A program made the translations under genes and the position numbers. From NCBI GenBank assembly GCA_902785785.1, contig CADAAA010000001.1, positions 1 through 64,000 of the forward strand: a stretch of 64,000 nucleotides of DNA, read 5' to 3'. Source of the stretch: an uncultured Bacteroidia bacterium (lineage in GTDB: Bacteria > Bacteroidota > Bacteroidia > Bacteroidales > UBA932). The notes under the pieces are model-generated. The model had not been told where the DNA came from, did no database searches, and saw nothing but the letters and a program-made list of their open reading frames with translations. Shown piece by piece: positions 36,339 to 40,198 of this stretch. Within the stretch, counting starts at the first letter, position 1. Each line of letters opens with the position of its first letter.

Positions 36339-37334
36339 CTAAAGGGTTTGTCCGCCGATGAACTCCCTCATGATGGAAGTCGGGGGAATAGCGGCGATCT
36401 CTGCCGGGGTGAAAGCCCTGACATGGTTCAGGAAAGCGATGAGCTTCTGCGCCTTCTCGTAGACGGGCGAAGACTCGGCGATGCCATAGAGCAGCGGCTC
36501 CGCGAAATACTTCAGAACCGGAGTGTCGTAGAGGGTGGAAGAATTGAACACCGTGTCGGCATTCTCCTCGTAGGGGAAGATGTTGAGTGTCTCGCCGCGG
36601 CGGACGCTGGGCCAGAGCATCAGCGTGCGCTCCGGCGAGATGCCGCGGGCGCGGTTGTCGCGCACGATGCGGCGCAGAAGGCGCTTGTCGGTGGTGGAGT
36701 TGTGCACCTTCTCGCCTCCCGGCAGGGCTGAAAGCGAGGAGATGTATATGCGGAAGATGCGGTCCTGGTCCACTGCGGCTGTGAGTGCCGGGTTCAGGGC
36801 ATGGATGCCTTCCATGAAGAGGATGTCCTTGTCTCCGAGGCTCATGCGTCGGCTCTCGTCCATGACGGTCTTTCCTTCCTTGAAGTCGTACTTGGGGATG
36901 ATGACTTCCTTGCCGGCGAGCAGGTCGTTGAGGTTGGAGTCGAGCATTTCGATGTTCATTGCTCCGAGCGACTCGAAGTCGTATTCTCCCTTCTCATCCT
37001 TAGGAGTCTGGTCACGCGGGACGAAATAATTGTCCAGCTCTATGACCTTCGGGGTGAGTCCGAGCACGCGGCACTGCTGGGCGATGCGCAGCGAAGATGA
37101 GGTCTTGCCGCTGGAAGAAGGCCCCGAGATCATCACGATGCGCGAGACATGCCGGCGCCAGTAGATCTGGTTGGCCATGCCTGCATATTTTCGCTCCTGG
37201 CGCGCTTCGCAGAGGTTGATGAGCTCGATACCCTTGCCCTCCGCTAGGGTTTGGTTGAGTTTGTCGAGAGTGTCGATCCCGATGGCTTCGCACCAGTCGT
37301 GGTACTCCTGCCTGGCGGCTTCAATCTTTGTCAT
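36339..37334 (-). CDS. Uridine kinase-like nucleoside kinase, N-terminally short
   Basis: 331 residues from the ATG at 37334, which overlaps the uvrA stop as ATGA. The P-loop is GPSSSGKTS (about residue 71). Later come ELDNYFVPRD and DILFMEGIHALNP, as in uridine/phosphoribulokinase-type kinases. The related Bacteroidales kinases I know carry a TGS/threonyl-tRNA-synthetase-like region of about 200 residues in front; here only its end is left (INLCEARQERKYAGMANQIY). The catalytic half appears intact. Translational coupling to uvrA is likely. Confidence 0.85.
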   Translation of the reverse strand: MTKIEAARQEYHDWCEAIGIDTLDKLNQTLAEGKGIELINLCEARQERKYAGMANQIYWRRHVSRIVMISGPSSSGKTSSSLRIAQQCRVLGLTPKVIELDNYFVPRDQTPKDEKGEYDFESLGAMNIEMLDSNLNDLLAGKEVIIPKYDFKEGKTVMDESRRMSLGDKDILFMEGIHALNPALTAAVDQDRIFRIYISSLSALPGGEKVHNSTTDKRLLRRIVRDNRARGISPERTLMLWPSVRRGETLNIFPYEENADTVFNSSTLYDTPVLKYFAEPLLYGIAESSPVYEKAQKLIAFLNHVRAFTPAEIAAIPPTSIMREFIGGQTL

Positions 37335-40198
37335 AATATCTCCTTTAAGTATTTTCCGGTTACGGAGTCCGGGTCTTCGGCGACTTCCTCGGGGGTGCCG
37401 CATGCTACGATGCGTCCGCCCTTGGCTCCGCCTTCCGGTCCCATGTCTATCAGGTAGTCGACGCTCTTGAGGACGTCGAGGTTGTGTTCGATGATGATGA
37501 CGGTATTGCCTTGTTCCACCAGCTTGTCAAGCACGCCGAGCAGTACCTTGATGTCCTCGAAATGCAGGCCGGTCGTAGGCTCGTCGAGGATGTACAGGGT
37601 GTTGCCCGTGGCTTTCTTGAACAGCTCGGCGGCGAGTTTCATGCGCTGGCTCTCGCCGCCGGATAAGGTCACGGCGGACTGCCCGAGGTGGACGTAGCCG
37701 AGGCCGACGTCCACGAGGGCCTCCAGTTTCTGCGCTATGCGCGGGATGCCCTTGAAGAACTCGTATGCCTCGCTGATCGGCATCTCGAGCACGTCGTTGA
37801 TGCTCTTGCCCTTGTAATGTACGGCGAGGGTGTCCTCCTTGTAACGTTGTCCACGGCACTGGTCGCAGACGACGTTGACCGAAGGCAGGAAGTTCATCTC
37901 AATGACCTTGATGCCCGCGCCCTTGCACTCTTCGCAGCGGCCGCCGGGGACGTTGAAGGAGAATCGTCCGGCCTTGAAGCCGCGGACCTTGGCGTCCGGC
38001 GTGTCCTCGAAGAGGGCGCGGATATCGTTGAACACTCCGGTGAACGTAGCAGGATTGGAACGCGGCGTCCGGCCGATGGGGCTTTGGTCTATCTCGATGA
38101 GCTTGTCTATGTTCTTGATGCCGACTATCTCGCGGTAGGGCAGCGGTTTGACATTGGAGCGGTAGAACTTGTTCTTGAGCACCGGCATCAGGGTCTCGTT
38201 GACGAGGCTGGACTTGCCGCTGCCGCTGACTCCTGCCACTCCGATGAAAGTGCCGAGAGGGAAGTCCACGTCCAGGTCCTTGAGGTTGTTGCCGCAGGCG
38301 CCGCGCACGCCGAGCGTGAGACCGTTGCCGCGGCGCCGTACCTTCGGCACCGGAATCGACTCCTCTCCCGCCAGGTATTCCAGCGTCAGGGATCCAGCTT
38401 CAGCCTGAGGGGTTCCGGTCCGAAAAATGTCCTTCGGACCCCCCCCAAGCTTATCGCTTGGGTCCCCCCCTCTTATGTTGCCGAGGGTGGCACAATTTTT
38501 CGGACCGGACCCCTCAGGCTGAGCTGAAGGAACCGGGCCGCTGTAGCAGATGCGGCCGCCGTCTTCGCCGGGGCCGGGGCCGACGTCGATGAGCCAGTCG
38601 GCCGAGAGCATCGTCTCGAGGTCGTGCTCGACGACGATGACGGTATTGCCCTCGTCGCGGAGTTTCTTGAGCGAAGCGATGAGCTTGCGATTGTCGCGCT
38701 GGTGGAGGCCGATGGACGGCTCGTCGAGGATGTAGATCACGTTGACGAGCTTTGAGCCGATCTGCGTCGCCAGCCTTATCCGCTGGCTCTCGCCGCCGGA
38801 AAGCGAACCCGTCGGACGGTCGAGCGACAGGTACTCCAGACCGACATCCACCAGGAAATCCACCCTGTCGGTGAGTTCCTTGAGGATGTCGCGTGCGATG
38901 GCCTTCTCCTTGGCGGAGAACTTCTCCGGCAGGGAGGCGAGCCAAGTCTTGAGCTCGGAAATTTCCATTGCAGACACTTCCGCGATGGTCTTGCCGTCTA
39001 TCTTGAAATAGTTGGTATTCTCGTTGAGGCGTGTGCCATGGCAGACCGGACAGACGACCTTGTCGTCGATGTCCTCGACGACGCCGTCCCAGCCCACCAT
39101 CTCGCTGTCCGAGCCGTCCCCGATGCGGAATAGTTCGTCCGAGCCGAAAACCAGCAGGGACACGGCCTCTTCCGGGATCTCGTCGATCGGTGCGAATAGG
39201 GAGAAATCATGCTTGCGCGCAATGGCCCGGACGGTTTCGAACTTGCGGTTCTCCCGCATCCGTCCAAGCGGTACGATGCCTCCGGCCGCAATGCTCAGGC
39301 TGCGGTCCGGCACGATGGTGTCCATGTTGACGTCCACAATCATGCCGAGGCCCTTGCAGTGCGGGCAGTAGCCTTCAGGCGAATTGAAGGAGAACGAATG
39401 CGGCGCCGGCTCCTGGAGCGATATGCCGCTGTCCGGATCCACCAGATGCTTGGAATAATGCCGGAGCTCACCTGTCTCCATGTCCAGCAGGGCAAGGGCG
39501 CCCTTGCCCATGCCGAGCGCATTGACGACGGAGTCGCGTATGCGCTTGGAGTCACCCGCGCCGGGCTTGAGCTTGTCCACGACCAGCTCGATGAAATGCC
39601 CCTTGTAGCGGTCGAGGGCGTCTACCTCGTTGAGAGGGACTATCTCCCCGTCGATGCGCACCTGGGTGTAACCGCGCTTGCGCAGCTGCTCGAACAGCTC
39701 GCGGTAGTGGCCCTTGCGGCCACGCACGAGCGGGGCGAGCAGGATGCACTTCCGTCCTTCATATTCGGACATGATCAGGTCGACGATCTGCGCGTCGCTG
39801 TAGCGGACCATCTCCTTTCCCGTGACGGGGGAGTAAGCGCGCGAGGCGCGGGCGTACAGAAGTCTCAGGAAGTCGTATATCTCAGTGATGGTGCCGACCG
39901 TGGAGCGGGGATTGCCTACAGTGGTCTTCTGCTCTATGGCAATGATGGGGCTGAGGCCCGTGATGTTCTCCACCTCGGGCTTCTCCAGTATCCCCATGAA
40001 ATGCTTGGCGTACGGGGAGAGAGTGTTCATGTAGCGACGCTGGCCCTCCGCATAGAGCGTGTCGAAAGCCAGCGAGGACTTGCCGCTGCCGCTCAAGCCC
40101 GTGATGACCACGAACTTGCGGCGCGGTATCGAAACGTCCGCGTTCTTAAGGTTGTGCGCCTTGGCGCCTTCTATGACGATATACTCACCTTTATCCAT
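37331..40198 (-). CDS. uvrA: Excinuclease ABC subunit A with an in-frame palindromic insertion
   Basis: A 955-residue damage-recognition ATPase of nucleotide excision repair. The first Walker A is GLSGSGKSS (34-42). The zinc finger of the first half is incomplete (only CPHCKGLG is clear) and a second is CEECKG...CDQCRG. Signature motifs LSGGESQRIRLA and LSGGESQRMKLA and the second Walker A GVSGSGKSSL are intact. Residues about 558-601, between YSGPVPSAQ and GSLTLEYLAGEE, are not part of the family and are encoded by a palindrome (38396-38526). The insert lies in the linker between ATPase halves, so activity is probably kept. The gene overlaps the MBL gene upstream by 8 bases and the kinase downstream by 4. 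Confidence 0.95.
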   Translation of the reverse strand: MDKGEYIVIEGAKAHNLKNADVSIPRRKFVVITGLSGSGKSSLAFDTLYAEGQRRYMNTLSPYAKHFMGILEKPEVENITGLSPIIAIEQKTTVGNPRSTVGTITEIYDFLRLLYARASRAYSPVTGKEMVRYSDAQIVDLIMSEYEGRKCILLAPLVRGRKGHYRELFEQLRKRGYTQVRIDGEIVPLNEVDALDRYKGHFIELVVDKLKPGAGDSKRIRDSVVNALGMGKGALALLDMETGELRHYSKHLVDPDSGISLQEPAPHSFSFNSPEGYCPHCKGLGMIVDVNMDTIVPDRSLSIAAGGIVPLGRMRENRKFETVRAIARKHDFSLFAPIDEIPEEAVSLLVFGSDELFRIGDGSDSEMVGWDGVVEDIDDKVVCPVCHGTRLNENTNYFKIDGKTIAEVSAMEISELKTWLASLPEKFSAKEKAIARDILKELTDRVDFLVDVGLEYLSLDRPTGSLSGGESQRIRLATQIGSKLVNVIYILDEPSIGLHQRDNRKLIASLKKLRDEGNTVIVVEHDLETMLSADWLIDVGPGPGEDGGRICYSGPVPSAQPEGSGPKNCATLGNIRGGDPSDKLGGGPKDIFRTGTPQAEAGSLTLEYLAGEESIPVPKVRRRGNGLTLGVRGACGNNLKDLDVDFPLGTFIGVAGVSGSGKSSLVNETLMPVLKNKFYRSNVKPLPYREIVGIKNIDKLIEIDQSPIGRTPRSNPATFTGVFNDIRALFEDTPDAKVRGFKAGRFSFNVPGGRCEECKGAGIKVIEMNFLPSVNVVCDQCRGQRYKEDTLAVHYKGKSINDVLEMPISEAYEFFKGIPRIAQKLEALVDVGLGYVHLGQSAVTLSGGESQRMKLAAELFKKATGNTLYILDEPTTGLHFEDIKVLLGVLDKLVEQGNTVIIIEHNLDVLKSVDYLIDMGPEGGAKGGRIVACGTPEEVAEDPDSVTGKYLKEIL
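38396..38526. repeat. Palindromic element inserted in frame in uvrA
   Basis: Arms of 35 bases (38396-38430 and 38492-38526) are inverted copies differing by three single-base indels. An inner hairpin, CCCAAGC (38444-38450), loop TTATC, GCTTGGG (38456-38462), lies between C-rich tracts. The element adds about 44 codons without a stop. It is open on the opposite strand as well. I see no second copy in this window. Confidence 0.85.

Follow-up and report, generated by a model that had tools for sequence, protein, structure and literature searches.

We analysed a window of 64,000 nt from the genome of an uncultured Bacteroidia bacterium (Bacteroidales, UBA932; assembly GCA_902785785.1, contig CADAAA010000001.1, positions 1 to 64,000), whose uvrA gene carries a long palindrome in frame. 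This palindrome belongs to a repeat family with a conserved core and a long stem whose arms differ from locus to locus. The family is probably one of mobile palindromes, small and non-autonomous, that are widespread in a single large genus of gut Bacteroidales, and insertion, maintenance of the reading frame and template switching together would account for it. The element is of a known kind of in-frame palindrome, but the family itself is undescribed in the libraries and literature searched. The host genus, we presume, may be GTDB Cryptobacteroides. An original prediction, made from the letters alone, had proposed a spreading in-frame palindromic element akin to those of Rickettsia and Wolbachia, and 14 further copies in the same genome support this proposal.

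The inverted repeat in uvrA is the longest of the six listed for the window and, with 132 nt, is one base longer than the 131 first claimed (Table 1). As single-stranded DNA it folds with a z-score of -10.0, none of 200 shuffles folding equally well, and as RNA with a z-score of -10.3; either strand folds strongly. The fold is a four-way junction, in which an outer stem of 33-nt arms encloses three inner hairpins. The arms have two internal one-base gaps, and two bases are unmatched at the core; the 35-base arms with three indels of the original prediction were thus close, and the inner structure that it described is present, with three hairpins instead of one. The frame does remain open as claimed, since the UvrA open reading frame (ORF) is unbroken through the element. 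In an alignment to a solved UvrA chain, 43 query residues (559-601) stand opposite 5 chain residues, with long matches on either side. The R1 covariance model has its sole match in the window (E up to 10) at 38405-38517, with 107.6 bits. Searched alone in the genome (E up to 0.001), the uvrA arm matches its partner arm only.

Table 1. Parts of the palindromic element and its host gene in the window
Feature	Positions	Strand	Basis or remark
Whole palindromic element	38395..38526	+ (antisense to uvrA)	132 nt; inverted repeat and R1 model match
Left arm, locus-specific outer stem	38395..38427	+	Inverted-repeat alignment
Conserved core	38428..38493	+	66 nt; comparison of copies
Core hairpin 1 (TTC loop)	38429..38439	+	Fold and copy alignment
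Core hairpin 2, stem varies between copies with compensation	38444..38462	+	Fold and copy alignment
Core hairpin 3, with a nearly invariant stem (54 copies)	38466..38490	+	Fold and copy alignment
Right arm, complementary to left arm	38494..38526	+	Inverted-repeat alignment
uvrA, insert at about residues 559-601	37331..40198	-	955-aa ORF read through the element; solved-chain alignment

The whole genome (2.36 Mb in 12 contigs; G000) harbours 15 copies including that of uvrA, counted from 18 search rows of which two are the uvrA arms themselves and two represent one split ispE copy. Thirteen copies lie in frame inside 13 housekeeping genes, and two are found between the ends of convergent genes. 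According to their best NCBIfam matches, the carrier genes are uvrA, rsmE, atpG, ribF, hemW, pcrA, a gene for an rlmB/trmH-type methyltransferase, recR, mtaB, truB, tilS, aroK and ispE; several of these matches score below the curated cut-off, in some measure as a result of being split by the insert or by the end of the retrieved sequence. Of the 39 copies extracted from this genome and three close relatives, 35 are within ORFs of 200 codons or more that extend for 40 codons or more on each side; the split ispE copy was left out of this count, and the ORF strand is doubtful for two copies (L007 and L116). Among the copies of these four close genomes, the element occurs in either orientation and in five of the six frames; a TAA in the core closes the sixth, which is unused.

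Some copies are accompanied by other inserted DNA. The ispE copy (L009) and the pcrA copy of the relative G190 (L158) are enlarged by additional DNA of roughly 80-100 bases within the core, and the frame is open in both. Sequences of the GTCATTCTGAGCGAAGCGAAGAATCC type, which we take to be similar to repetitive extragenic palindromic (REP) sequences of the CGTC type, occur in frame in ribF of G000 just past the element (L018) and in two UvrA linkers (L059 and L061); a search of the window that allowed up to 3 mismatches found none.

Among 250 genomes of the genus, that of the window included, the covariance model detected the element in 206 (E up to 1e-4); at most 14 candidates were scored per genome, which makes the copy numbers minimum values. 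Further copies in the same genome and a covariance-model search of relatives had been proposed as checks with the original prediction, and both turned out in its favour. An order-wide draw gave the element in 5 of 295 genomes and 5 of 183 genera, again counting our own. A scan of species genomes with the core pattern identified at least 80 loci; those listed are titled Bacteroidales, Bacteroidia or Rikenellaceae, and many of the listed matches have a ruminant source in the record title. Viral contigs yielded no exact match to the core pattern.

Across copies, the element measures about 100-160 bp, with a core mostly of 60-75 nt that contains the three hairpins. From the loci collected for this comparison, 65 copies passed an arm-score filter, 59 of which have standard cores; 54 of the 59 were aligned, leaving out five G169 copies related to others. 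In this alignment the stem of hairpin 3 (CCCTCTTATGnnGCCGAGGG type) is almost invariant, hairpins 1 and 2 show some compensated changes, and all 22 counted outer-stem pairs changed on both sides. Counted over all 37 pairs of the structure, two-sided cells number 492, versus 145 in shuffles and 84-156 when the structure is slid, while the number of pair types is not above that of shuffles (78 of 500 reach it). Because G-U pairs are few (35 of 1187 stem cells), the stem seems to owe its sequence to DNA copying and not to selection on RNA. The arms have just a weak motif in common, roughly GGGTAnnnnCCCTGAAAAC in this clade as read by eye.

Near-identical cores with unrelated arms form a strong pattern, with exceptions. 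Among the 65 copies, the 39 pairs whose cores are at least 0.95 identical average 0.58 in arm identity, versus 0.34 for shuffled arms. The arms reach at least 0.83 identity in six of these pairs, namely four G000/G169 orthologs and two pairs involving the dnaX copy of G169, whose arms are common with hemW. Four copies of G190 have cores that are 97-100% identical and arm identities of 0.33-0.72. Arm length in the 13 copies of G194 is 27-39 bp, and the two arms match but for 0-2 mismatches or gaps. Where their cores are at least 0.97 identical (16 pairs), arm identity averages 0.47 (0.37 when shuffled), one pair being at 0.83 and all others at or below 0.56. In G097 the arms are perfect in five of seven copies and have 6-7 mismatches or gaps in the other two, and two loci have arms and flanks in common. 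For 18 within-assembly pairs of a wider assembly set, core identity averages 0.86 and arm identity 0.49 (shuffled 0.36); exceptions are found there too, as three of the six pairs of any kind with cores of at least 0.97 have arm identities of at least 0.8. Of the 82 core-pattern matches in this set, 16 had no arm of the set score and were left out. The cores themselves do not evolve in concert as a general rule: G000 orthologs are on average 0.95, 0.85 and 0.90 identical in core to those of G169, G190 and G116, which is as much as or more than the 0.81-0.87 between copies within a genome; G169/G190 orthologs average 0.84. Groups of loci with nearly identical cores do exist in G190, G194 and G097.

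Insertion is shown by the copy at G000:C4:51591 (igC4), as both G169 and G116 have a clean junction at this site, with neither insert nor arm sequence. In G190 the flanks of the site are about 3.7 kb apart. The other junctions lie in variable sequence. That of C2:203572 (igC2) is short in G116 and contains ten bases of one arm in G169. AroK, RecR and MtaB of G169 and RecR of G190 are short at the insertion site and have no palindrome, and decayed copies are present in recR and ribF of G116. In AroK, the same site is occupied in three species and read in two frames.

The UvrA linker is an insertion hot spot. In G169, the nearest relative, the element is absent from uvrA between flanks that are 97 and 91% identical. 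We read the linker in 45 relatives, 29 picked by best match and 16 more. Four contain a member of this repeat family, which in two of the four is oriented opposite to the copy of the window, about five have other palindromes (a reading by eye), and the remaining linkers vary in length without the element. The outcome that the prediction had named as contrary to it, an unrelated insert of equal length in all relatives, was thus not seen. The hot spot, the locus-specific arms and the core as the conserved part are features beyond that prediction.

Other palindromes and recurrent insertions were observed at these and similar sites. A third type, with CCCCCTTCGGGAG and GCCCTTCGGGC hairpins, is in frame in the UvrA linkers of G120 (L080) and G100 (L082), with a looser relative, by eye, in that of G098 (L077). 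The trmH-type gene of G116, G169 and G190 (L157, L159 and L161) contains, at the site that the element occupies in G000, a palindrome of another kind, long-armed and with a core of its own; in G169 its outermost arm bases (GGTTCGG) resemble those of the G000 copy. Lastly, one conserved protein, presumably GH3-like, carries the element at nearly the same loop in G194, G047 and G023 (L367, L368 and L369), with differing arms and orientation, and has a short loop in other relatives.

Orthologous copies reveal how the stem changes. In 11 picked ortholog pairs, those that could be aligned, 32 columns have changed in both arms and are still paired, and 24 are paired in one species only. Same-site copies across species, from a set of 43 copies in six genomes, comprise 20 pairs in the same orientation and 19 flipped ones (19 of 39; the pairs are not independent). 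Template switching between inverted repeats is described as homogenizing the arms and inverting the spacer (PMC8604942), and concerted arm change with core inversion would fit switching by a polymerase. Both of these changes are found between orthologs here, and the dnaX flip has clearly homologous arms, with an identity of 0.89, above the 99th percentile of the background of unrelated copies; the flipped tilS pair, at 0.78, is at that percentile.

Taken together, the empty sites suggest insertion by an enzyme. Insertions would persist where the frame is kept and the site is a protein loop, and translation would then give the host protein an additional, disordered loop of about 35-50 residues. 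A core free of stops in five of six frames would aid survival within genes. After insertion, polymerase template switching between the inverted arms would hold them complementary and would occasionally flip the core. In an AlphaFold model of AroK with its insert, made from a 4-sequence alignment, insert residues 71-105 and 107-113 have a predicted local distance difference test (pLDDT) score below 50, and the best structure match is the shikimate kinase 3trf. The AroK host protein thus presumably carries the insert as a flexible loop.

Several observations weigh against this account. In other genomes of the genus, 17 of 47 sampled copies have at least 40 open codons on each side, and most are not clearly in genes. 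No target-site duplication was found at the clean igC4 junction, and no transposase is linked to the element, which was sought around 23 distinct Y1 loci. At many loci the element lies in a variable linker, which does not reveal how old the insertion is. Flipped pairs have a mean arm identity of 0.53 versus 0.48 for unrelated copies; because their arms barely exceed unrelated ones on average, some flips may be separate insertions. Furthermore, in-place template switching alone does not produce unrelated arms on near-identical cores.

As to the mobilizing enzyme, it is possible, though less likely than not, that the element is an unusual REP moved in trans by a REP-associated tyrosine transposase (RAYT, of the HuH/Y1 type) acting on its hairpins as single-stranded DNA. 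Y1_Tnp matches, counted at E up to 0.001, co-occur with the element in 44 of 61 genomes of the genus, with six genomes having the element only, two Y1 only and nine neither (Fisher p = 1.3e-5); in genomes at least 90% complete these numbers are 20, 2, 0 and 4 (p = 0.001), both statistics ignoring kinship. The two Y1 proteins of G000 resemble the NCBIfam REP_Tyr_transpos family, at 28.1 and 32.8 bits, which is below the cut-off of 80. In addition, the Bacteroidetes RAYT subclass 2.6 is described as having 'atypical secondary structures' on its flanks, copies of which occur elsewhere (PMC6006769). Nevertheless, six genomes have the element without a Y1 match, and the element does not neighbour Y1 genes in any of 24 stretches (90 kb, E up to 1) that represent 23 distinct Y1 loci, a part of those in the genus. 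Similar simple hairpins, unlike the core, stand on both sides of 5 of the 18 recognized Y1 genes. These RAYT-like genes with their own flanking hairpins (L409, L414, L416, L419 and L424) have 310-355 codons.

The origin of the arms invites two other proposals. A rather doubtful one is that the core alone is heritable and that the stem is made anew at each insertion, derived from neither donor nor target, with the second arm synthesized by fold-back priming at the conserved GAAAAC/GTTTTC foot. We know of no parallel for a transposition signature with a stem made anew. A donor for the arms was also considered; the igC4 arm occurs at no other place in G000 at up to 3 mismatches. The second proposal, inverted target duplication, was suggested by the uvrA site of G169 and supposes that, as the core inserts, about 20 bp of adjoining host sequence are copied to form the second arm. 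It would explain locus-specific arms, and the G169 sites of uvrA, tilS and igC2 contain part of one arm (longest-exact-match p = 0.013, 0.077 and 0.001, respectively; best-match p = 0.013 for tilS). However, no arm trace was found in 14 of 17 filled/unfilled comparisons, including the cleanest, igC4, in two relatives, and as other relatives carry the element in uvrA and tilS, the G169 trace there could be the scar of a lost copy. These 17 comparisons are those that could be aligned and are a weak test where the linker is variable; recR of G169 is borderline (p = 0.058), and a few sites are not pristine, with another palindrome at the trmH-type gene and a long truB linker in G116. We therefore rejected inverted target duplication, which is improbable.

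An action at the RNA level, as a self-splicing element, a translational bypass or a riboregulator, with the open frame incidental, is very improbable: it would be in keeping with the strong fold of either strand and the conserved core, but the element is found in both orientations in genes, with open frames and few stem G-U pairs, and no Rfam family came near a gathering score in the stretches searched. That the palindrome arose by chance in an ordinary variable UvrA linker is refuted, even though linker length does vary within the genus, by the fold z-scores near -10, the 14 further copies and the genus-wide occurrence.

The favoured reading, a mobile palindrome kept in frame, can be compared with known systems. 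No description of this element was found in the literature, judged by title and abstract in a search with subscription journals mostly outside its coverage. Rickettsia palindromic elements (RPEs), compared here by description only, are palindromes of about 150 bp located in frame in unrelated genes (PMC10969869). Like them, the element is a palindromic insert in frame in unrelated genes. Unlike them, it has no conserved peptide, uses five frames and both orientations, with two frames at the one AroK site, combines a conserved core that flips with locus-specific arms, and resides in Bacteroidales.

REP sequences are also palindromes partly inside the same kinds of genes: some intragenic REPs of the GTAG and CGTC types are reported in uvrA, UvrD/Rep-type helicase genes and truB of other bacteria, and CGTC-type REPs from Bacteroidetes (PMC3733652). 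In contrast with REPs and REPINs, which are built on a 20-40 bp hairpin with an unpaired tag, the element is much longer and has three inner hairpins, and the CGTC-like string of its core is paired (G in 54 of 54 copies, the T position in 52 and C in 52). Unlike in REPtrons, no element copies flank RAYT-type genes (no match at the 23 distinct Y1 loci). Miniature inverted-repeat transposable elements share terminal inverted repeats, while the arms of the element differ between copies, some exceptions aside.

Palindromes within translated genes are also described for mitochondria. Those of Nematomorpha contain perfect inverted repeats with both arms coding (PMC6649704); unlike in the element, these arms encode conserved protein regions, and the description drawn upon here includes no conserved mobile core. 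Sponge mitochondria contain mobile hairpin elements (RHE), some in frame inside genes (PMC2800124). The two RHE types described there have conserved stems and slightly variable loops, whereas the stem is the variable part of the element. Template switching, finally, is a mutation process and not an element, and has arm homogenization and spacer inversion in common with the changes seen here.

In-frame mobile DNA that is common across a large gut-bacterial genus amounts to many natural insertion experiments that can be read. These insertions could show which protein loops take some 40 foreign residues and how palindromes persist in housekeeping genes. The usual pattern is reversed, with a variable stem and a conserved centre, and the source of the arms of each copy is the most interesting point raised: if it is true that insertion creates them afresh, there is a copying reaction yet to be discovered. 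Together, the concerted change of the arms and the flips of the core offer a natural assay for template switching in bacteria.
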